The notes below the pieces were generated by a model, which saw only the letters and a program-made list of their open reading frames with translations, did not search any database and was not told the DNA's origin. Of a DNA stretch of 64,000 nucleotides, positions 8,170-21,894 are shown piece after piece (position 1 is the first letter of the stretch; every line of letters begins with the position of its first letter). Made by a program: the position numbers and the translations under genes. Origin of the DNA: Thermodesulfobium narugense DSM 14796 (GTDB lineage: Bacteria; Thermodesulfobiota; Thermodesulfobiia; Thermodesulfobiales; Thermodesulfobiaceae); contig NC_015499.1 of NCBI RefSeq assembly GCF_000212395.1, forward strand, positions 1,499,421-1,563,420, given 5' to 3'.

Positions 8170-8192
8170 TAAAATCCTGGACTAACCTGAGC

Positions 8193-9185
8193 TTAAAACA
8201 TATCCCTTATTTCATCTATGCTTTGAACCTTGATGGTCGCTTTAAGTATGCTTCTTAGTTTATCCCTATCTTTTGTTTTTTTCACCATTAGTTTTATATC
8301 TCTTGGGACTTTATCAAATTTGGCTTCAATGGCATCTAAAAGTAAATCCTGGGCTTCAATAATCATACCCTCTATCTTACCTTTCTCCATACCTTCTAAT
8401 AGTCCTTCTTCCTTACCTTTTTTAATGCCCTCTTCTCTTCCCTTTTCTATCCACTTCTCAATTACAGGTGCCATCTTATCACCTCCTACAGTAGAGTCTA
8501 ATATAGTTTTTATTTCTTCTTCTTCCAGGTCATTTACAGTTGTAATATACATCAAGTATATCAAAAACTCGTCTAAATCTAAATCTTTTACGATATAGAG
8601 TATCTCAGAATATTTATTTAAGTCTTTACCTAAAAATATGAATTTAAACAGCAATAATGCGCTTAGAAGACATTTGTTATTTATGTTAAGGCGAAATCTC
8701 TCTTCTTCAATTTTATTTGTATCTATCAGAATATACTTAAAAGCAGGCAGATAATCTTTATAGATATATTTTTCTTCAAATAGATCTGAAAAATCTATAG
8801 GTTTGTCCCAATTTGTTTTTCCGTGATAGAAAACTACTGGAATAATTGGCTCTATTGGCCTTTTGTTTTTCATATCCTCTTCCCATATTGCAAGCATATA
8901 TGAGAGTATCTGGATATTACTAAAGCTTCCCGTCTCTGATTTGTGCTCCAGTAGATAATACACCTGGGCTGAACTGGTTTTTGTCTGAAATCTAAAAGCT
9001 ATGTCTAAATTAAACCTTTTATACTTCTTTGAAATCTTTTCTGTGTTTATAGGTTTTATTGTATCAAGGTCAAGTTGTTCTAAAATCTCTTTTGGCAAAG
9101 AGAATTCAACAAAGCTTTTTGCATTCTCAATATTTGAGATTATCTGTTTAAAAAATTTATCATGTGTCTGGTATATATCTTCCAT
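8193..9185 (-). CDS. Rpn-family PD-(D/E)XK recombination-promoting nuclease
   Basis: 330 residues from ATG at 9185 (MEDIYQTHDKFFKQI, the usual family start); the frame runs open 32 codons further, but that part overlaps the divergent gene's leader and looks non-coding. The nuclease core shows an Asp in LDIAFRF and YYLLEHKSE carrying the ExK motif. The C-terminal end has the GREEGIKKGKEEGLLEG repeat typical of Rpn/YhgA proteins. These are often labelled transposases but are RecA-independent recombination-promoting nucleases. It is at the edge of the defence island. No terminal repeats were seen around it. Confidence 0.85.
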   Translation of the reverse strand: MEDIYQTHDKFFKQIISNIENAKSFVEFSLPKEILEQLDLDTIKPINTEKISKKYKRFNLDIAFRFQTKTSSAQVYYLLEHKSETGSFSNIQILSYMLAIWEEDMKNKRPIEPIIPVVFYHGKTNWDKPIDFSDLFEEKYIYKDYLPAFKYILIDTNKIEEERFRLNINNKCLLSALLLFKFIFLGKDLNKYSEILYIVKDLDLDEFLIYLMYITTVNDLEEEEIKTILDSTVGGDKMAPVIEKWIEKGREEGIKKGKEEGLLEGMEKGKIEGMIIEAQDLLLDAIEAKFDKVPRDIKLMVKKTKDRDKLRSILKATIKVQSIDEIRDMF

Positions 9186-9303
9186 AAATTGATTAAAACA
9201 CAATAAAAAGGAACTGTCAAATAAGGGACAAAGATCATACAGGGACAGTTTGATATTCACAGGTAAAAAAATATTGAACAAATATCTAAATAAGTTTAAA
9301 ATT

Positions 9304-12300
9304 ATGACTAAAAATTACATTATAAGGGGAATTAAAATCAATACAGACCTAACCTTTATTACAAACGAAAATGGACAAAGCCTACTTGAGCGCTTTAAGG
9401 TGTTGATAAAGGACGCTGAGTTTTTTGATTGCTTGGTTGGGTATTTTTATACGAGCGGATTTCATAATCTATATGAAGCCTTTGTAAAAACAAAAAGGAT
9501 TAGGATTTTAATTGGAATCGGCACGGATAAAAAAACACATGAGCTTATTAGATCTTACCATCACGTAAAAGAAGTGTATTCAGATGAAGTAAAAGAAGAA
9601 ATAGAGGATTCAGAAAACAAATATGAAGTAGAAAAGGGAATTGAGCTTTTTAAAGAGTGGCTCAAATCTGGCAAAATTCAGATTAAAGCCTATCCTGAAA
9701 GGAACTTGCACGCAAAGCTATATATAATGAGCTTTTCTGAAAGCGACAGGGATGCAGGACGAGTCATTACAGGTTCAAGTAATTTCAGCCAGTCTGGCTT
9801 GTCCAATAATTTAGAATTCAACGTCGAGCTAAAAAATGTTAGCGATTACAAATTCGCGAAAGAAAAATTTGAAGAATTATGGGAAAACTCAGTCGATGTA
9901 AGTGAAGACTATATTACAACTATCGAACAAAAAACATGGCTAAGAAATGATATATCCCCTTACGAATTATTTTTGAAGTTTTTGTACGAATATTTCAAAC
10001 GTGACCTGGAAGAGTCAGGCGAGCTATATAACCTAGAACTTCCAAATAATTTTTTGCAGCTTGAATACCAAAAGCAGGCGGTCATAAACGCAAGGCGCAT
10101 ACTGGAAGAATACGGTGGAGTCTTCTTATCTGACGTGGTGGGATTAGGAAAAACCTATATGGCAGCAATGCTCGCTTCACAGCTTGATGGCAGAACGCTA
10201 ATATTGGCCTCTCCTGTTTTAATTAACCCAAAAAATCCTGGCTCATGGGTAAACGTGTTCAGGGAGTTTAACTTAAAATTTGATACAGAATCTATTGGCC
10301 AATTAAAAAGGGTAAAAGAAACGTATAATCTTGATAAATACAAAAATATAATAATAGATGAGTCTCACAAATTCAGAACTGAGGACACAGTATCTTATAC
10401 CCTCCTTTCTGAAATATGTCGCGGCAAAAGGATAATATTAGTTAGCGCAACCCCATATAACAATTCTCCACAGGACATTTTATCTCAGATAAAACTATTT
10501 CAGAGCCCTCGAAAAAGCACGATTCCAGGCATAATAGATTTAGAAAGCTTCTTTAACAATCTGAAAAAAAAGCTTAAAAGCATAGATAAAAAAGAAAATC
10601 CTGAAAAATACATCGAAGCAGTTAAAGAAAACGCATATCTAATAAGAGAAAAAATTTTAAAATATCTTATGATAAGGCGAACAAGAAGTGAAATAGAAAA
10701 GTATTTTCCTAAAGATTTAGAGAAAAATAAGTTAAAATTTCCTCAGGTAAATGACCCAATAGCGCTCTTTTATGAGTTAAACGATGAAGAAAACAAAATT
10801 TTTGACGAAACTATAAGGTTAATAACTAAACAAATTAGCTACGCAAGATACACCCCGCTTCTTTACTTAAAATCAAAAGATCTATCAATCATCGAAAAAT
10901 ATGGTCAGCTAAACATGGGCACATTTATGAAAGTGCTACTTGTAAAGAGGCTGGAGAGCTCATTTCACGCATTTCGTCTGACAATAGATAGATTTATAGA
11001 TAACTATAAAAAATTTATAGATGAATTTAAGAAAGGCAACGTGTATATAAGCAAAAAATATACAAATAAAATATTCGAATATATAGAAAATGACGACGAT
11101 GAGGCTATCCAAAAGTTAATAGAAGAGGATAAAGCTGAAAGATATTCAAGCGATGAATTTGAGGAAAGATTTAAAGAAGATTTAGAAAGAGATTATGAAA
11201 CTTTTTCCAAAATAAAAACAATGTGGGGAAGAATTAGTAGAGATCCAAAACTTAAGAAACTTCTTGAACAATTAAAGACAAATAAGATTTTAAAGGATAA
11301 AAAGTTAATAATATTTAGCGAATCCAAAGATACTGTAAATTATATTGCAGAAAAAATTGAAAATGATCTTAATAAAAAAATACTAGTATTTAGCAGCTCA
11401 TCAAGCGAGAAAATAAAAGATATTGTAATAGAAAACTTTGATGCTAATTCAAATAATCAAAAAGACGAGTACAACATTTTAATTTCTACTGAAGTATTGT
11501 CCGAAGGCGTAAACCTTCATAGGTCAAACGTAATTATAAACTACGATATTCCATGGAATCCCACAAGAATGATGCAGCGAGTTGGAAGAATAAACCGCGT
11601 CGGCACAAAATTTGACGAATTGTTCGTTTTTAACTTCTTTCCTACTCAGCAGTCAAATGACCAGATCAAACTTCAAGAAATAGCCAAATCAAAGATAGAG
11701 GCATTCCTGACCTTATTGGGTGACGATGCAGCAGTGCTAACTGAAGACGAACCAATAGGATCACATGAATTGTTTGGAAAATTAACTTCAAAGACCACAA
11801 TTACCGGAGAAAGCGAAATAGAAGAAAGCGAATTAAAATACTTTAGAATTCTTCAAGATATTAGAGAAAAGAATCCAGATTTGTTCCAAAAAATTAAATA
11901 TCTGCCAAAGAAGGCAAGAAGTGCAAAGATAAGTCATAAAAAGTCAGGTTTACTTACATATTTTAGAAAGGGAAAGGTGGAAAAATTTTATCTTGCAAAA
12001 AGAGGCGAATCAACTGAATTAGATTTTATGAGCGCAGCATCTCTCCTGGAAAGCGCACCAGAAGATCTAAGAGTAAAATTACCAGAAAATTTTTATGATC
12101 TTTTAAACTTAAACACAGAGCAATTTTCACAAACTTTAAATAGCACTGAACCCATGCCCACAAGAAGAGGCAGGGATAAATCTCTAACCATACTAAGATA
12201 CCTTAAAGCAATAGACAAAACTCCTCTTACCGACACACAAGAACAATATATAGAAACTTTGCAGGAGAAATTAGAAAATGGCGAAATCCCTAAAAAAACC

Positions 12301-12492
12301 TTAACTAAGATTTTGCAATCTATAGAAAACCTAAAAGAACAAAAGGTAAATTCTTTAAAAATTCTGGGTGCAATTCAAAGCGCCTTGCCAGAAAGGCTAT
12401 TAAAAGAACACTACTCAAGCTCTTCATCTGATGAAGACATCTCAAATAAAACAGAAGTAATTTTGTCTATGTATCTAAAGGAGGGGCAATGA
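9304..12492 (+). CDS. PLD-nuclease/SF2 helicase fusion, restriction-like
   Basis: 1062 residues from ATG at 9304; the frame is open from 9250 but no ribosome site supports that start. Residues about 40-180 form a phospholipase-D-type nuclease domain with HAK near 136 and the GSSNFS segment near 157. A SNF2-like helicase follows: GLGKT (about 280), DESH (about 352), SATP (about 380) and QRVGRINRVG (about 757). The ATGA overlap with the next gene shows tight coupling to a nuclease-methyltransferase. Together they resemble a type ISP restriction enzyme divided over two proteins, or a DISARM core; no known system is assigned with certainty. Confidence 0.9.
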   Translation: MTKNYIIRGIKINTDLTFITNENGQSLLERFKVLIKDAEFFDCLVGYFYTSGFHNLYEAFVKTKRIRILIGIGTDKKTHELIRSYHHVKEVYSDEVKEEIEDSENKYEVEKGIELFKEWLKSGKIQIKAYPERNLHAKLYIMSFSESDRDAGRVITGSSNFSQSGLSNNLEFNVELKNVSDYKFAKEKFEELWENSVDVSEDYITTIEQKTWLRNDISPYELFLKFLYEYFKRDLEESGELYNLELPNNFLQLEYQKQAVINARRILEEYGGVFLSDVVGLGKTYMAAMLASQLDGRTLILASPVLINPKNPGSWVNVFREFNLKFDTESIGQLKRVKETYNLDKYKNIIIDESHKFRTEDTVSYTLLSEICRGKRIILVSATPYNNSPQDILSQIKLFQSPRKSTIPGIIDLESFFNNLKKKLKSIDKKENPEKYIEAVKENAYLIREKILKYLMIRRTRSEIEKYFPKDLEKNKLKFPQVNDPIALFYELNDEENKIFDETIRLITKQISYARYTPLLYLKSKDLSIIEKYGQLNMGTFMKVLLVKRLESSFHAFRLTIDRFIDNYKKFIDEFKKGNVYISKKYTNKIFEYIENDDDEAIQKLIEEDKAERYSSDEFEERFKEDLERDYETFSKIKTMWGRISRDPKLKKLLEQLKTNKILKDKKLIIFSESKDTVNYIAEKIENDLNKKILVFSSSSSEKIKDIVIENFDANSNNQKDEYNILISTEVLSEGVNLHRSNVIINYDIPWNPTRMMQRVGRINRVGTKFDELFVFNFFPTQQSNDQIKLQEIAKSKIEAFLTLLGDDAAVLTEDEPIGSHELFGKLTSKTTITGESEIEESELKYFRILQDIREKNPDLFQKIKYLPKKARSAKISHKKSGLLTYFRKGKVEKFYLAKRGESTELDFMSAASLLESAPEDLRVKLPENFYDLLNLNTEQFSQTLNSTEPMPTRRGRDKSLTILRYLKAIDKTPLTDTQEQYIETLQEKLENGEIPKKTLTKILQSIENLKEQKVNSLKILGAIQSALPERLLKEHYSSSSSDEDISNKTEVILSMYLKEGQ

Positions 12493-15400
12493 ACGAAAAT
12501 CTATTCAAAAATTTAATAAAAGATACCTTTGAAGATAGATTTGAAAAAACTAAATTTATAAAATTTTTAGGAGCACTTCTAAAAGAATTTGAAAAGGATA
12601 ATTTCAGATATGTCGGCATTTATGTTAGAGAATGTTTTAAGCCATATATTAGCTCTTTAGAAAGAATTGGCAAATATAATGATGGCAAAAAAGAAATAGA
12701 TCTATTAATAGTTGAACTAAAAAGTGAAACCTCTCTACTAAGGGCAAGAACTGCCCAGAGAAATTTTATCAGATGGTATCTAAACGGCAGTAGAGGCGGA
12801 AAACTTAAAGATGCAGCGCTCGTTGCCTTTGTGTCGCCAAATCAAGAAGATTGGCGCTTTTCCTTAGTAAAAATGGAATACAGGTTTGATGAAAAAGGCA
12901 ATGTAATAGAAAAGCTTAGTCCAGCAAAAAGGTTTTCATTTCTAGTAGGAAGAAATGAAAACAGTCATACAGCGAAGTCTCGCTTTCACACTTTGGTCCT
13001 TTCTGACAGAAAACCGACACTCGACGACCTGGAAGAAGCTTTCAAAGCCGAACGGGTAACTGATGAGTTTTTTAAAGAATATAAAAATCTATTTATAAAA
13101 ACAGTAGATGAAATAAAAAAGAGAATTGATATTGACAAATCCCTAAGAGAAGAATTTGAAATCAAAAATATAAGCGTTGTAGATTTTTCCAAAAAGTTAC
13201 TGGGTCAGATTGTTTTCTTGTATTTCTTGCAAAAAAAGGGTTGGCTGGGAGTCTCTAAAGATAAAAATTGGGGTGAAGGGGATAAAAATTTCCTCCGTTC
13301 ACTATTTAAAAGGTGCATCGATGAGAAGAAAAACTTTTTTAACGACTACTTGGAATATCTATTCTACGATGCCCTAAATAATGAAAGAAGCCATCAGGCA
13401 GATCCTAGCTGGCATGAGCGTCTGGGCTGCAAAATACCGTTTTTAAACGGCGGCCTCTTTGAACCTTTTAGTGACTACGACTGGAAAAATATAGATCTAT
13501 TGATACCAAACGATCTATTTTCAAACAATAATGAAGATGGAATCTTAGACGTATTTGATCTATTTAACTTTACGGTGAAAGAAGACGAACCGCTTGAAAA
13601 AGAGGTAGCAGTAGATCCTGAGCTTTTGGGTAAAATCTATGAGAAGCTCAACGCAATAAGAGAAGACAACTTTGAAGAATATAAAAAGGCGCTTAAGAGC
13701 AAGGGCTCTGAAAACAGGTTTAACAAAGAATACGGGGTCTATTACACTCCAAGAGAGATAGTGCACTTTATGGCACAAAGCGCCCTTGTTGAATATTTGT
13801 TTGAAAATCTTAAAAGCATATCTCAAAATTTAAAAAGTCTAAAAGAAGATATAGAGAACTTTATCTGTCACTCTGAACACTTTATAGAAAATGATAAAAC
13901 TGCAATGGAAAAAGAAGAAAGAATTGAAATGGGCGAACAAAAAACCTCAATATACAATTCAATGATCCCTGGTTTTATAAAAGAAAACGCTAAAACAATA
14001 GACAGACTTTTAGAAGATATAAGAATATTAGATCCTGCTGTAGGATCTGGAGCTTTCCCCATAGGCCTTATGCACGAAATCGTAAAGGCAAGAGAAATTT
14101 TAAGTCCATATATTGATGATACAGATAGAACCGCATACAACTTCAAGTGCCACTCTATCCAAAATTCTCTATATGGAGTAGATATAGACAAAGGAGCCAT
14201 AGAAATTACAAGGCTAAGATTCTGGCTGTCTTTAGTAGTGGACGAAGAAGACCTTACTCAGATAAAGCCTCTTCCAAACTTAGACTACAAGCTGGTATCA
14301 GGCGATTCCTTGTTAAATATTGAGAGAATTTTATATAATTATAAAGACTTTGATAATTTAGAAGCTCTTAAAAAAGAACATCAAACAGAGACGAATTCAG
14401 ATAAAAAGAGAGAATTAAAAAAACAAATCGATGAAGAGATCAAAAATCTTACAGGCAAACATACAGAATTTGACTTCGAAGTTTACTTCTCAGAGGTAAT
14501 GCGTGGCGGTGGCTTTGACATTGTAATTGGAAACCCGCCGTATATACAACTGCAAAAGAATGCAGGACTACTTGCAAAAAATTATAAAAACTTTAATTAC
14601 AAAGTATTTGACAGCATGGGAGACATATACGCTCTTTTTTATGAAAAGGGCATAAAGTTATTAAAGAAAAATGGACATCTTTGCTTCATAACCTCAAACA
14701 AGTGGATGAGAGCAGGTTATGGAAAAAAGCTAAGAGAGTTTTTTACAAAGTATAATCCAAAGATATTAGTTGATTTAGGACCTGGAGTATTTGAAAGCGC
14801 AACAGTAGATACAAATATCTTGCTCGTTCAAAAGAAAGAAAACCAGAAAGAACTCGTTGCTACTACATTACAAAAGGAAGATAAGGGAAACATATTAAAC
14901 GCTATAAAAGAAAGAGGAGTAATCTTAGATAAGCTTTCTAAAGACGCTTGGTTCATAGGAAGTAGCGCTGAACAAAAGCTAAAAGAAAAGATAGAAAGAA
15001 TTGGAAAACCGCTAAAAGACTGGGATGTAAAAATTTATCGTGGCATTTTAACAGGCCTAAATGAAGCATTTATTATAACTACAGAGAAAAGAGACGAAAT
15101 ACTTAAAAATTGCAATACTGAAGAAGAAAGAGAAAGAACAAGTAAAATTATAAGACCAATTCTTCGAGGAAGGGATATAAAAAGATATTATTATGAGTGG
15201 GCGGGGTTGTGGCTTTTATGGGTTTATCAAGGCATAGATATTTCAAAATATCCAACGATTTACAATTATTTAAAACCTTATAAAAACAGATTAGAATTAA
15301 GAACAGGAGGGGCTAAAATTGCGGGCGATCCCAATACAGTATCTTACAAATGGTACGAATTACAAGTAGACTCTGCATCGCATATATCCGAGTTTGAGAA

Positions 15401-15815
15401 AGAGAAGGTGGTGTGGCAAAGAATTACACAGGCACCAACTTTTTGTCTCGTCGAACCAAATGTCTTTGTACTTGATAGCATGGCTTTTTTTACAGGTAAT
15501 AACTTAAAATACATTATGGCAGTTTTAGATTCCAAATTGATATATGAATATGTTTCAATGATTGTTCATCAATATGGTTTTACTGGCTTTAGACTTTCCA
15601 ATCAATATGTTGAAATTATGCCCATTGCTCCCATAACCTCATCAAATCAAGAAATAGTACAAAATATAGAAACACTTACAAGTAACATTATGGCTGCTAA
15701 GAAACAAAATCCACAGGCAGATACGAGTGAATGGGAGAAAGAAATAGATCGCTTAGTTTATAAACTTTATGAATTAACCGAAGAAGAAATAGAAATTATC
15801 GAATCAGGAAAATAA
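12489..15815 (+). CDS. Eco57I-type N6-adenine methyltransferase with N-terminal nuclease domain
   Basis: 1108 residues. Near the N-terminus KEIDLLIVELKSE matches a PD-(D/E)XK site (D71, E76, K78). The methyltransferase core has DPAVGSGAF (about 515) for S-adenosylmethionine binding and NPPY (about 681) for target adenine flipping. The C-terminal part (about 850-1080) begins IYRGILTGLNEAF, as in TaqI-C target-recognition domains. This is the architecture of a type IIG restriction-modification protein. It overlaps the helicase gene by four bases. A recognition site cannot be deduced from sequence alone. Confidence 0.92.
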   Translation: MNENLFKNLIKDTFEDRFEKTKFIKFLGALLKEFEKDNFRYVGIYVRECFKPYISSLERIGKYNDGKKEIDLLIVELKSETSLLRARTAQRNFIRWYLNGSRGGKLKDAALVAFVSPNQEDWRFSLVKMEYRFDEKGNVIEKLSPAKRFSFLVGRNENSHTAKSRFHTLVLSDRKPTLDDLEEAFKAERVTDEFFKEYKNLFIKTVDEIKKRIDIDKSLREEFEIKNISVVDFSKKLLGQIVFLYFLQKKGWLGVSKDKNWGEGDKNFLRSLFKRCIDEKKNFFNDYLEYLFYDALNNERSHQADPSWHERLGCKIPFLNGGLFEPFSDYDWKNIDLLIPNDLFSNNNEDGILDVFDLFNFTVKEDEPLEKEVAVDPELLGKIYEKLNAIREDNFEEYKKALKSKGSENRFNKEYGVYYTPREIVHFMAQSALVEYLFENLKSISQNLKSLKEDIENFICHSEHFIENDKTAMEKEERIEMGEQKTSIYNSMIPGFIKENAKTIDRLLEDIRILDPAVGSGAFPIGLMHEIVKAREILSPYIDDTDRTAYNFKCHSIQNSLYGVDIDKGAIEITRLRFWLSLVVDEEDLTQIKPLPNLDYKLVSGDSLLNIERILYNYKDFDNLEALKKEHQTETNSDKKRELKKQIDEEIKNLTGKHTEFDFEVYFSEVMRGGGFDIVIGNPPYIQLQKNAGLLAKNYKNFNYKVFDSMGDIYALFYEKGIKLLKKNGHLCFITSNKWMRAGYGKKLREFFTKYNPKILVDLGPGVFESATVDTNILLVQKKENQKELVATTLQKEDKGNILNAIKERGVILDKLSKDAWFIGSSAEQKLKEKIERIGKPLKDWDVKIYRGILTGLNEAFIITTEKRDEILKNCNTEEERERTSKIIRPILRGRDIKRYYYEWAGLWLLWVYQGIDISKYPTIYNYLKPYKNRLELRTGGAKIAGDPNTVSYKWYELQVDSASHISEFEKEKVVWQRITQAPTFCLVEPNVFVLDSMAFFTGNNLKYIMAVLDSKLIYEYVSMIVHQYGFTGFRLSNQYVEIMPIAPITSSNQEIVQNIETLTSNIMAAKKQNPQADTSEWEKEIDRLVYKLYELTEEEIEIIESGK

Positions 15816-15819
15816 TTAT

Positions 15820-16857
15820 ATGAGAAGAGAACCTTGTATAGTAAAACAAATGCTTCAAAAAGCTAAAGATACTGCACTATTAGCAATTGAATATTATAAC
15901 AAACCTGCCGTTTCCTTTAAATCTGGAGGTTTCATCGTTATGATATGTATTAGCTGGACTTCGCTATTTCACGCATATTTTTTAAAAAACAAAATAAAAC
16001 CATTTTATCGTAAAAATGAAAAAAGTATAAAGCCAAGATATATGTATATAGAAGAGAAATCGCAAGATGGTAAAGTTACAAAATATAGAAAATGGTGAGA
16101 TCTAAACAAATGTTTGAAAGAATTTTTTAAAATTAATCCAGATGTTGCCGTTCAAAAAAATATTGAATTTTTATCAGGTTTACGAAATTTAATTGTACAT
16201 AGCTACTTACCAGAATTAGATGCATCAATATTCGGTGAATGTCAATCAAGTGTTTTGAACCTTAATAGCTATTTAGATAAATACTTTGGAGAAAAACATA
16301 GAATTGATACATTTTTATCTTTTTCTATTCAGATTTTTCAAAGTCCAAAAAATTTTATAGAAGCATCAAAAAAAGAATTAAAAAAGAAAAATGCAATTGA
16401 AATTGTTGAATTTATAAAAGCATTTAGATCGACATTATCAACAGAAATCTGGGAATCTGGACAATTTTCTTTTAAAGCAATATTAATACAGGTTGTGAAT
16501 CACGAAAGTAGAGATACATTACCAATAAAATTTATAAATGAAAGAGATTTAACAGAAGAACAAAGACAAATTCTAAAAGATGTTGGAATTGTTTTTACTA
16601 AGTATAAAAATGTAGATGCAGTTCCCGAAAATTTTACATTAGACTATAAAGTATTATGCAACAAATTAAAGGAAGATATACCTAATTTTAAAATGAATCA
16701 ACAATTTCACAAGTTTAGAAAAGATATAATTAATGGTAATCCAAAATTAAAACATACCAGAAGATTAGACCCCAAAAATATCAAAAGTCCTAAAAAAGAT
16801 TTTTATGATTACAAAATAATTGACGAATTTAAGAAAAAATACAAAGATATTACATAA
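15820..16857 (+). pseudogene. DUF3644 (HEPN-type) protein interrupted by in-frame TGA
   Basis: A 345-codon frame begins 4 bases after the methyltransferase stop. The first 92 codons match the start of DUF3644 (LLAIEYYNKPAVSFK). Codon 93 (16096-16098) is TGA, and the same frame continues without a gap through LNKCLKEFF and LRNLIVHSYLPELD to 16857. RNLIVH (R122 onward) fits the Rx4-6H catalytic motif of HEPN ribonucleases. The single nonsense codon splits the domain ahead of that motif, so the full protein is not made unless there is readthrough. A sequencing error is possible. Position suggests it was once a third part of the defence module. Confidence 0.75.
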
Positions 16858-17096
16858 TAACTTGTTATGCATATGAATAAAAAAATTAATAAATTAATTC
16901 CATACTTCTAAAGTAAAACTCAATTTTCAGACAAAAAATTTAGAAAAAATTGAGCGGCCAACTTTTAAACTCTACAATTTAAATTTATAATACCCTTCCC
17001 TTTTCGTTTATATTTTGTTAACTTTTTTCATAAAAATTTTTTATTTGAGATTATGCCCATCTTAATTTAATCTTTAGCCAAAACCAATTTAAGAAA

Positions 17097-17112
17097 TAGA
17101 CAATATTGTCTA
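17097..17112. promoter_or_regulatory. 16-bp perfect palindrome, operator-like
   Basis: TAGACAATATTGTCTA reads identically on both strands. It lies in the 16858-17161 gap, about 50 bases before the ribosome-binding site of the MORN gene, where a repressor dimer could control its promoter. The rest of that gap is very A+T-rich with no gene that I can support. The cognate regulator is unknown. Confidence 0.4.
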
Positions 17113-17161
17113 CAAAATATATAATTTTAAGTAAAAAATAAAAATAACCTGAAAGGAGAAA

Positions 17162-17721
17162 ATGAAGTAAGTCAACTATTATACAAAGCCATTAAAAAGT
17201 TCAATTCGATTCAGAGAGCATTATTATTAGGGTTATGTATAGTGATTTGGTTAGCAGTTTCTGCAGACAATTCAGCAGCGCAAGGGACAGAACTTTGTGG
17301 AGTTGATCCTACAAATGGTGCAAAAATTTGCATTATATCCGGTGACAATAGTGCTTCATTAGTTTCAGTAAGCTGGTCAGGGGCGGTAGTAAATGGAATG
17401 GCAGATGGTCCAGGAAACTTAACCTGTGTCTATAAAATTCCTGATAAAGAGACAAAGGTTCAAGGCAGCGCAGAAATGAAAGCTGGTAAGCTAAATGGCA
17501 AGGCAAATCTTAAATGGTCAAATGGATATTCATACGACGGATACTTCCAAGACGGCCTGCGAAACGGGCAAGGTGTATTCAGATGGCCTGATGGCATAGT
17601 TTATGATGGTGAATGGAAGAATGGAACATATGATGGATATGGTGTTATGAAGTTTGCCATGAGGCTCCCTCAATCCCTGACGCTCACAAACTGGTCACCT
17701 ATGACTATCGTGTCTGGATGA
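17162..17721 (+). pseudogene. Exported MORN-repeat protein, probably frameshifted
   Basis: Open from the first codon upstream of a GTG at 17242, this frame encodes a good signal peptide: KAIKKF basic start, hydrophobic ALLLGLCIVIWLAV, then SADNSAAQG. It then has at least three MORN-type repeats (GSAEMKAGKLNGKANL, YDGYFQDGLRNGQGVF, YDGEWKNGTYDGYGVM). The signal peptide has no start codon in frame. The only ATG with a ribosome site (AAAGGAG, ATG at 17162) is one base out of frame and stops at codon 3; restoring one base would join them. After GYGVMKF the repeat pattern ends abruptly in unrelated sequence. Both ends look damaged. Confidence 0.6.
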
Positions 17722-17935
17722 AATGATGAAAAAATATCCAGTATATCAAATGGCAGTACTTATGACTTACAAGTTAATTCAGGGCAATGGCTTTGAGAAC
17801 GTTATCTATTTCTATCAACTCCTTCATAGCGGTGTACCGGTAAACAAGATTTTTCTGACAGCTTTTAAAGTGCCAATGTCCTACTTCTTAAATGATGTGA
17901 ACGAATATTTTGCCAGCTTGCGAAGCACATAACAA
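17643..17935 (+). pseudogene. Scrambled coding remnant, possibly Rpn/PD-(D/E)XK-like
   Basis: Two overlapping short frames look like shattered coding sequence. One (17643-17726) reads CHEAPSIPDAHKLVTYDYRVWMK then stops; shifted by two bases, the next (17723-17932) continues KKYPVYQMAVLM and ends NDVNEYFASLRST. The joined stretch LVTYDYRVWMK plus KKYPVYQMAVLM resembles the central strand-helix-strand of Rpn-like nucleases. No start and no complete domain remain. It abuts the broken MORN gene, so the region probably records a deletion or recombination join. The assignment is tentative. Confidence 0.35.
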
Positions 17936-17961
17936 AAAATATGATATTTCGGATTTAATAT

Positions 17962-18236
17962 TTAGTTCTTTTTCTGGATAGAGCTTCTGCTATTACCCCA
18001 CTCACCAATATGCCTATCCTCCTCTTTTCTTAATCCATCAACAAATTTAATTGGATCTTCTATTTCTTCTTGCCATTTACCCTTTAGATTAAAGCCTCTT
18101 TAATGTTCATCTTTTCTATGTATTCAGACAAAGCTTTTCTCACTATGTCGCTAAAATTTGCTTTAGGATTTATGTGTTTAATATCTTTAAATATTTTTTC
18201 ATCAATCATAATTGTTTTTCTGATAATACTATTCAT
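17962..18236 (-). pseudogene. Ribbon-helix-helix antitoxin, frameshifted
   Basis: ATG at 18236 follows GAGGTGA and opens a 50-residue frame (to 18084): RKTIMIDEKIFKDIK plus ANFSDIVRKALSEYIEK, a typical ribbon-helix-helix DNA-binding fold. It then stops. In another frame the sequence continues as LKGKWQEEIEDPIKFVDGLRKEEDRHIGEW, the usual toxin-neutralising tail, ending at 17962. A frameshift around 18100 therefore separates the two halves. At the end LVSGVIAEALSRK looks like the start of a PIN-type toxin that stops after a few codons. The DNA-binding half may still be made and bind its operator. Confidence 0.6.
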
Positions 18237-18248
18237 AACATCACCTCA

Positions 18249-18269
18249 ATTATCATATTATTTGATAAT
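18249..18269. promoter_or_regulatory. Inverted-repeat operator of the antitoxin gene
   Basis: ATTATCA (18249-18255) and TGATAAT (18263-18269) form a 7-bp inverted repeat with a 7-base spacer, only 13 bases upstream of the antitoxin start. Ribbon-helix-helix antitoxins normally autoregulate through such repeats. Confidence 0.5.
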
Positions 18270-18320
18270 ATTACAACAACATATTAAGTCAAGTCTATTT
18301 ATAAAAAACTCCCTTTTACT

Positions 18321-18355
18321 CGTTCATCTTCCGTTAATATTCGTTCGTGTATAGT
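18321..18355 (+). promoter_or_regulatory. Direct-repeat regulator site and -10 box before the PepSY gene
   Basis: CGTTC (18321), CGTTA (18332) and CGTTC (18342) repeat at 10-11 base spacing on one face of the helix, followed by TATAGT (18350-18355) as a likely -10 box. Spaced direct repeats overlapping the -35 position are typical of OmpR/PhoB-family activation. The response regulator gene is the next but one downstream. Confidence 0.4.
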
Positions 18356-18387
18356 TCTTTACAAGAATTAAAAAACGGAGGTGTGTT

Positions 18388-21042: not shown

Positions 21043-21894
21043 ATGCCAATAGTTTTAGAAAAAGAAAATTATAAAGAAAAACTAAAGGCTCATCCGATTG
21101 TTAAATGGGCAGGAGGGAAAAGGCAGTTAATTTCGATAATTAAAGAAAACATGCCCAAACATTTCAATCGCTATTTCGAACCTTTTATAGGAGGCGGCGC
21201 TGTTTTCTTTGAAATACAACCTGAAAATGCCTACATTTCTGATACAAATGAAGAATTGATAAATTTATACAATGTAGTAAAAAATAATCCCCTACAGTTA
21301 ATAGCCGATTTACGCAAACACATAAATACGAAAGAATATTTCCTAAAAATTAGAAACGCTGACAGGAATGCAAGCTATAGAAATTGGTCAGATGTCCAAA
21401 AGGCAAGCCGCTTTGTTTACTTAAATAGAACTTGTTTCAATGGGCTCTATAGGGTTAATAGCAAGGGTCAATTCAATGTACCTTTTGGAAATTATTCAAA
21501 CCCAAAAATTGTTGATGAAGAAAATATTCTCAATTGTTCGAAAATTTTAAAAAATACACAGATAAGTTGTAAAAATTTTGTTGAAATATTAAACTACGTA
21601 AAAAAAGGCGACTTTGTCTATTTTGATCCCCCATATCTTCCTTTAAATAAAACGTCAAGCTTCACATCATACACAAAAGAAGGATTTAACATTGACATGC
21701 AGTTTAAGCTCAAAGCTGTTTGCGATGAAATTGACAAAAAAGGCGCAAAATTTTTACTCTCCAATTCTGATACGGAAGTTATAAACGAGCTATACAAATC
21801 ATACAATATTAAAAAGGTCTTTGCATCGCGCGCTATTAATTCAAACGCAAAAGGAAGGGGCAAGATAACAGAGGTATTAATTAGAAATTACTGA
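21043..21894 (+). CDS. dam: Dam-type DNA adenine N6-methyltransferase (orphan)
   Basis: 283 residues of the D12 class. VKWAGGKRQLI (about 20-30) and PFIGGGAVFFE (about 48-57) form the cofactor site, YLNRTCFNGLYRVN (about 126-139) is the conserved GATC-recognition stretch, and DPPY is at 195-198. It methylates adenine, by family probably in GATC. No restriction endonuclease gene is adjacent, so it acts as a solitary methylase here. The 210-base gap before it (20833-21042) holds no gene that I can support. It converges on queE with 14 bases between stops. Confidence 0.93.
   Translation: MPIVLEKENYKEKLKAHPIVKWAGGKRQLISIIKENMPKHFNRYFEPFIGGGAVFFEIQPENAYISDTNEELINLYNVVKNNPLQLIADLRKHINTKEYFLKIRNADRNASYRNWSDVQKASRFVYLNRTCFNGLYRVNSKGQFNVPFGNYSNPKIVDEENILNCSKILKNTQISCKNFVEILNYVKKGDFVYFDPPYLPLNKTSSFTSYTKEGFNIDMQFKLKAVCDEIDKKGAKFLLSNSDTEVINELYKSYNIKKVFASRAINSNAKGRGKITEVLIRNY

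Follow-up and report, generated by a model that had tools for sequence, protein, structure and literature searches.

Two adjoining genes at positions 9304–15815 of a 64,000-nucleotide stretch of the Thermodesulfobium narugense DSM 14796 genome (NC_015499.1, positions 1,499,421 to 1,563,420; hereafter the window) raise the question of whether a nuclease-helicase and a DNA methylase encoded side by side are separate defence proteins or two halves of one enzyme. The upstream gene encodes HEL, in which a phospholipase D (PLD) nuclease is joined to a superfamily 2 (SF2) helicase of the SNF2 kind. The downstream gene encodes IIG, an N6-adenine methylase with a TaqI-like specificity domain. With a probability of about 0.72, HEL and IIG are two subunits of one ATP-dependent restriction-modification (R-M) system that would resemble the type ISP and type III enzymes, split over two chains and equipped with a PLD nuclease. 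The proposal is built on the composition of the chains, their pairing, their intact motifs, the co-variation of the IIG N-terminus with HEL and the exchange of the IIG C-terminus, from which a complex, translocation and cutting are predicted.

Both chains are full length and every catalytic motif tested is intact (Table 1). The gene pair reported in a preliminary description of this DNA was confirmed in its open reading frames (ORFs), coordinates, ATGA overlap, PLD-SF2 helicase and methylase with TaqI_C domain. Pfam assigns PLDc_2, SNF2-rel_dom and Helicase_C to HEL, and Eco57I, N6_Mtase and TaqI_C to IIG. At the join, GGGGCAATGAACG, the IIG start codon (ATG, 12489–12491) overlaps the HEL stop codon (TGA, 12490–12492) in a different frame. 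The AlphaFold2 model of HEL (predicted local distance difference test, pLDDT = 82.9; predicted template modelling score, pTM = 0.73) has a helicase core that resembles RapA and other SNF2 proteins. SauUSI was among the Foldseek matches to this model with an E-value of 2.8e-10, but with a TM-score of 0.20–0.25. A partial match to DrmD (119 bits) lies far under the curated DrmD cut-off.

Conservation of the HEL motifs was assessed in 47 complete pairs, a set from which truncated and very long IIGs were left out and which contains one duplicate (L048 = L088). Of 22 PLD and motor positions checked, 20 are invariant in all 47 pairs, and the two that vary are A137 (46/47) and E175 (43/47). The invariant positions include an H/K/N/E tetrad which we take to be BfiI-like. 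Since HEL has a single fully conserved HxK column in these pairs, there is one PLD motif per chain.

The preliminary description had credited IIG with its own PD-(D/E)XK site and the pair with two different nucleases. The letters are present in the window; however, the full set at D71, E76 and K78 is found in only 6 of 71 relatives. Position 76 is E in 7 of the 71, with K (14) and H (14) as the commonest residues, and H replaces E76 in the orthologue at locus L039, whose IIG is 74–75% identical. In the AlphaFold2 model, where the N-terminal domain has the strand/helix order a-b-b-b-a-b-b and may be a degenerate PD-(D/E)XK fold, D71 and E76 share one strand (69–77). When residues 1–180 of 20 relatives were compared with Pfam and PDB nuclease profiles, the matches were at chance level and none was confident, the nearest to a nuclease being Cas_Cas4, which two of the 20 relatives matched (best E = 0.068). 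The better-kept positions near the triad (R87, R91, R123, S125, R148 and T161) do not look like a nuclease site. A second nuclease in IIG was rejected on grounds of conservation, and of the two nucleases once claimed only the PLD domain is supported. Since the PLD tetrad is kept in 47/47 pairs and the IIG triad in only 6/71 relatives, conservation places motor and nuclease on HEL, and methylase and recognition on IIG. The earlier notion of a translocating R-M system, perhaps a split variant, agrees well with this division of labour between the chains, with conserved pairing and with the swapping of specificity described below; its second nuclease does not stand.

The remainder of IIG has clear structural relatives. 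Its AlphaFold2 model (pLDDT = 83.4, pTM = 0.77) matches CamA (Z = 27.6), BrxX/PglX (Z = 25.1, 693 residues aligned) and MmeI (Z = 21.8), with residues 1–186 barely covered. Residues 193–1094 superpose on residues 714–1569 of the type ISP enzyme LlaGI (Z = 24.3, 568 residues aligned, root mean square deviation 5.4), and a further match was found to LlaBIII (Z = 23.3). The PADLOC type IIG model PDLC03596 (REase_MTase_IIG) covers residues 1–1106 with 1173 bits and is matched by 33/33 IIG relatives. The best PADLOC label for HEL is C3a139 "HKD+Snf2" (168 bits), a model without a stated cut-off or function that is matched by 46/46 HEL relatives at an E-value of 1e-30 or better. A check with defence-system hidden Markov models, proposed in the preliminary description, returns a model for each half.

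The same source had proposed a search for the gene pair in other genomes. Among the 80 best of 532 HEL relatives, ranked by similarity with a HEL profile in named genomes, IIG lies downstream on the same strand at 68 loci, within 150 bp at 39 and separated by a gap or an intervening gene at 29. A contig end falls within 700 bp at eight loci, and four have no IIG, although at three of these the remaining sequence is shorter than 1.1 kb. IIG was upstream of HEL at none of the 80. These loci are spread over many candidate phyla, Nitrospirae, Chloroflexi, Bacteroidota, Verrucomicrobia, Proteobacteria, Thermotogota and archaea such as Methanoculleus. Seen from the methylase side, the IIG N-terminal module occurs at 28 places in 386 genomes; at 24 of these, a HEL gene on that contig and strand is no more than 1.5 kb away (coordinates compared by eye), the other places being in G135, G033, G030 and G345. 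HEL-family helicases are found in 65 of the 386 sampled genomes (E-value of 1e-60 or better), with pairing checked for part of these. Thirteen closer further HEL regions (L171–L183) include nine with a methylase downstream, one of them (L175) having only an N-terminal IIG piece behind another gene. In the others, the sequence ends too soon (L171), HEL is unpaired (L172 and L183) or ORF calling left the region unscored (L182). Seven distant regions (L184–L190) comprise two with the methylase in the other order (L184 and L186), one with a 41-bit match (L187) and four without an adjoining methylase.

The T. narugense genome itself holds a second HEL-IIG pair (C1:1117758-1124428; L004, 2759–9429) whose HEL is 31–34% identical to that of the window. 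It is followed by a 600-aa gene without a Pfam match, which is kept (71%) in genome G003 beside decayed IIG pieces (L040). An apparent natural HEL-IIG fusion of 2210 aa (L050, 2888–9520) was rejected because a run of N spans the join; it is a trap for fusion-based inference.

Does pairing extend to co-evolution of the two chains? Over the 47 loci, the Spearman correlation of HEL identity with IIG identity is 0.826 for residues 1–230, 0.657 for 231–420, 0.506 for 500–790 and 0.054 for the recognition domain, and the observed values were reached in 0, 0, 0 and 67 of 300 Mantel permutations, respectively. The loci L042 and L046 separate the N-terminal part from the rest: their IIGs are 74–82% identical over residues 231–850 and only 26% identical over residues 1–200, and their helicases are 34% identical. 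Since residues 1–200 follow the differing helicases while 231–850 are kept, docking of the helicase is placed in residues 1–200, the alpha-beta domain that stands where type IIG and IIL enzymes carry their nuclease.

The C-terminal half of IIG appears to be open to exchange, the crossover lying within the 11-residue motif GFDIVIGNPPY. Locus L041 belongs to a different species of the genus, and its helicase is of the second type found in the T. narugense genome. The IIG of this locus is 57–100% identical, block by block, to that of the second copy up to residue 674 and 80–98% identical to that of the window over residues 686–1050. Identity between the window and L041 is 0.12 before the motif, 1.0 inside it and 0.91 after it, and the comparison of L004 with L041 gives the reverse. 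At the DNA level, the matches of L041 to the second copy and to the window overlap by 34 bases, and these encode GFDIVIGNPPY. The same boundary recurs in 75 pairs of IIGs (L088 left out) that are at least 65% identical over residues 231–674: residues 686–850 fall below 45% identity in 66 of them, and mean identity drops from 0.81 inside the motif to 0.28 just after it. The recognition domain, near residues 900–1050, forms a second swap unit nested in the first, as seen between the window and L039.

In some relatives, exchange has what may be a dedicated apparatus. A silent inverted C-terminal IIG segment lies behind the gene and beside a recombinase at the Verrucomicrobia locus L125, with repeats of 294 bp (85%) and 38 bp (92%). 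Silent inverted segments also accompany IIG on the Lactococcus plasmid pUCCL629A (L196), with a Mpi-type serine recombinase whose Resolvase domain was confirmed, and on a Prevotella nigrescens plasmid (L197), with an annotated Mpi-type invertase and a 47-bp, 96% repeat whose position coincides exactly with that of the NPPY motif. At L122, the recombinase adjoins no more than a short inverted remnant. Since recombinases of this kind were found only at L122 and L125 among 121 loci scanned, the cassette layout is a minority arrangement, and no silent inverted cassette was seen in the window within the analyses made. Where the arrangement is observed, the recombinase and inverted cassettes probably drive specificity exchange by switching. 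A phase-variable type IIG enzyme has reportedly been found in C. jejuni.

From these observations, a working cycle may be proposed. The C-terminal TaqI-like domain of IIG would read a short, probably asymmetric sequence and adenine methylation would mark self DNA, as the domains and fold suggest. Residues 1–200, with no conserved nuclease site, would dock HEL, as the co-variation suggests. At an unmodified site, HEL would be licensed to hydrolyse ATP and translocate. PLD nucleases need two motifs and act as dimers. Since each HEL carries one half-site, cutting should need two HEL molecules and would occur on their encounter, for instance when motors from two sites converge head-on. For type ISP enzymes, two molecules and two head-to-head sites are reported as necessary in the accessible text of PMC3874165. 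Specificity would change by replacement of the IIG C-terminal half at NPPY, or of the recognition domain alone, both exchanges being seen in the sequences compared.

Several points weigh against a single two-chain enzyme. Co-variation is the only line of evidence that points to docking by residues 1–200, and the low correlation of the recognition domain may partly reflect identities saturated near 0.2. A full IIG stands without HEL at L199, and pairing fades among distant HEL relatives (less than 500 bits), which mostly are not paired this way. The D/E-x-K letters are kept in 6/71 IIGs, that of the window included, and these few may have a nuclease. The DnmA-YeeB-YeeC cluster of B. subtilis, a related group of methylase, helicase and nuclease, gave no restriction when tested, according to the accessible part of PMC9973331. 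It is an evenly balanced proposition that the family further constitutes a distinct and unnamed class: an obligate two-chain PLD-motor R-M system in which a dead domain at the nuclease position serves as docking adaptor, with specificity cassettes replaced at NPPY through homologous exchange and, in certain lineages, through a dedicated serine invertase.

Alternatively, IIG could act alone as a type IIG enzyme, both methylating and cutting without a partner, with HEL as an independent PLD-helicase defence protein travelling along. The PADLOC type IIG match over its whole length and in every relative scanned, the D/E-x-K letters in the window, and the existence of stand-alone phospholipase D-like anti-phage proteins as an NCBI family are all consistent with this. 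It is nevertheless improbable, given the rarity of the nuclease triad, pairing that is near universal in both directions, an IIG N-terminus that co-varies with HEL and a HEL score of only 157 bits against that NCBI family (NF042964), whose curated cut-off is 1100. About equally unlikely is that the system is decayed or an orphan and is retained chiefly for regulatory methylation, a role put forward for DnmA-YeeB-YeeC in the accessible part of PMC9973331. While the adjoining DUF3644 gene is broken in this strain, HEL and IIG are full length with their tested motifs intact, and the specificity half keeps diversifying, as expected under phage pressure.

The least probable of these alternatives is modification and exclusion without cutting, after the manner of bacteriophage exclusion (BREX), in which HEL would block replication and the PLD domain would be structural. 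Strict conservation of the H/K/N/E tetrad suggests catalysis, and neither a PglZ nor a BrxC-type model was found in any of 10 window proteins scanned. The genome gave no match to the DUF499 ATPase (PF04465), which is a core component of BREX-related (BR) type 2 systems (1/14 control genomes match; DUF3780 was not searched for). These results stand against the closeness of the IIG fold to BrxX/PglX and a description of BREX type 1, in the accessible text of PMC12707154, as restriction without cleavage.

As a two-subunit enzyme, HEL-IIG would by analogy work most like the type ISP enzymes LlaGI and LlaBIII, with which it shares a motor, a gamma N6-methylase and a C-terminal recognition domain. 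In contrast to the single polypeptide of type ISP, there are two ORFs with an ATGA overlap, and the Mrr-like PD-(D/E)XK nuclease described in the accessible text of PMC3874165 is replaced by PLDc_2 in HEL, the ExK letters of IIG not being conserved. IIG has the Eco57I-type methylase and C-terminal specificity domain of type IIG enzymes without their conserved N-terminal endonuclease site. Type III systems differ in having a beta-class Mod and a PD-(D/E)XK Res, whereas Pfam and fold indicate an Eco57I/TaqI (gamma) methylase and a PLD domain here. Class 1 of the defence island system associated with restriction-modification (DISARM) likewise combines PLD, SNF2 helicase and adenine methylase functions, and HEL has its partial DrmD match, but PLD (DrmC) and SNF2 (DrmD) are separate proteins there and share one chain here. 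The DrmB-type MZB/DUF1998 domain (PF09369) has no match in the whole genome and is matched in 8/14 control genomes. DISARM membership was rejected on the absence of this match and the fusion of PLD to helicase. BREX-related type 2 systems have an HKD nuclease at the N-terminus of a SNF2 helicase and an N6-methylase (PMC12839542, accessible text); membership was rejected since DUF499 was not found in the genome. SauUSI, a type IV enzyme and a fold match to HEL, has an N-terminal PLD, a SF2 helicase and ATP-dependent restriction (PMC12707154, accessible text); however, it reads modified bases through SRA, whereas recognition here lies on a separate methylase. DnmA-YeeB-YeeC likewise has a methylase without a nuclease motif adjoining a helicase (PMC9973331, accessible part), but its nuclease is separate and of the GIY-YIG type, and the methylase comes first in gene order. 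Two chains and a PLD nuclease place the locus outside type ISP as that type is defined, and the lack of any MZB/DUF1998 match in the genome places it outside DISARM.

To call the pair undescribed, as was done earlier, was too strong, because a similar pair from the Lactococcus plasmid pLd8 was described in 2018 (PMC6098607), and PADLOC models exist for both halves. The accessible text of that report describes orf33-orf34 as a PLD-SNF2 protein adjoining a TaqI_C methylase in which no restriction domain was found, likens the pair to class 1 DISARM and contains no mechanism or family analysis. The layout itself is therefore already known. The likeness to pLd8 is one of description; if pLd8 resembles pUCCL629A, for which HEL scores 159 + 130 bits and the IIG match begins only at profile position 231, it would be no more than a distant member. 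In the open-licence PMC literature, neither a name for the HEL-IIG pair nor an account of the family-wide unit, the docking module or the NPPY cassette boundary was found, and the accessible text of PMC10333322 does not mention the pair.

Table 1. Features of the HEL-IIG locus, in window positions.
Feature	Position	Strand	Basis
HEL, PLD nuclease and SF2/SNF2 helicase, 1062 aa (predicted restriction/motor chain)	9304..12492	+	Open ORF, Pfam, AlphaFold2 model
HEL PLD catalytic region: H136, K138, N160, E171	9709..9816	+	Each residue in 47/47 complete pairs
HEL SF2 motor domains, about aa 250-840: K283, D352-E353, Q758/R759/R762/R765	10051..11823	+	47/47
ATGA start/stop overlap of HEL and IIG	12489..12492	+	Same 4-base overlap in 8/39 adjacent relatives
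IIG, N6-adenine methylase with putative N-terminal adaptor and TaqI-like specificity domain, 1108 aa	12489..15815	+	Open ORF, Pfam, PADLOC, AlphaFold2
IIG aa 1-200, putative helicase-docking module	12489..13088	+	Co-variation, L042/L046 swap
Pseudo PD-(D/E)XK letters of IIG, D71-LLIV-E76-L-K78, not conserved	12699..12722	+	Alignment of relatives
IIG methylase motif I, DPAVGSGAF	14031..14057	+	Motif conservation analysis of complete pairs
GFDIVIGNPPY of IIG: catalytic motif IV and apparent crossover point of the C-terminal half	14511..14543	+	Swap comparisons
IIG target recognition domain TaqI_C, about aa 890-1050, second nested swap unit	15156..15638	+	Pfam, swap comparisons
DUF3644/HEPN accessory gene directly downstream of IIG, broken by in-frame TGA (16096-16098); RNLIVH motif at 16183	15820..16857	+	Pfam, translation

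Two elements were overlooked in the preliminary description, the second HEL-IIG copy and the broken DUF3644 gene behind IIG. We take the RNLIVH motif of the latter to be the RX4-6H HEPN motif. In a sister genome the DUF3644 gene is open and encodes 393 aa (L039, 12954–14135), behind two AAA_15/OLD-like pieces. DUF3644 is placed in the HEPN family in the accessible text of PMC3710099. In the window (8170–18387) and in G003, the pair is flanked on one side by a metallo-beta-lactamase-fold gene and on the other by a PepSY/two-component cluster with a response regulator and kinase, and in G001 the same flanks surround a BsaWI-type R-M system instead (flank comparison of L039, L194 and L195). Since the flanks are shared and the R-M system differs, the site is, on this comparison, a defence hotspot. 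Relatives carry inserted genes in or after the pair: SLFN_AlbA_2 (a cluster of nine members, eight of which separate HEL from IIG), Bro-N (4), Fic, RhuM/Fic and AAA_13 (3), each cluster being named from one member identified by Pfam. The AAA_13 neighbours are presumably akin to RloC/PrrC.

Other genes of the window were noted. An Rpn/YhgA-like transposase-nuclease gene (PF04754) lies directly upstream of HEL (8193–9281, minus strand) and is largely absent here in G003. A MORN-repeat protein is encoded at 17242–17721, with the defence pair on one side and the PepSY gene on the other. A D12-class (Dam-like) N6-adenine methylase at 21043–21894 sits next to the two-component system, and its DNA is conserved in G002 and G003.

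In current annotation the methylase is taken for an ordinary type IIG enzyme, and the helicase is listed as no more than a loose candidate gene. Since the halves are annotated apart, the working unit is missed. If HEL and IIG act together as proposed, a metal-independent PLD nuclease would be added to the translocating R-M enzymes, and there would be a simple reason for cutting to need two motors. The NPPY motif would then be a natural cassette boundary at which target specificity is exchanged between helicase types.

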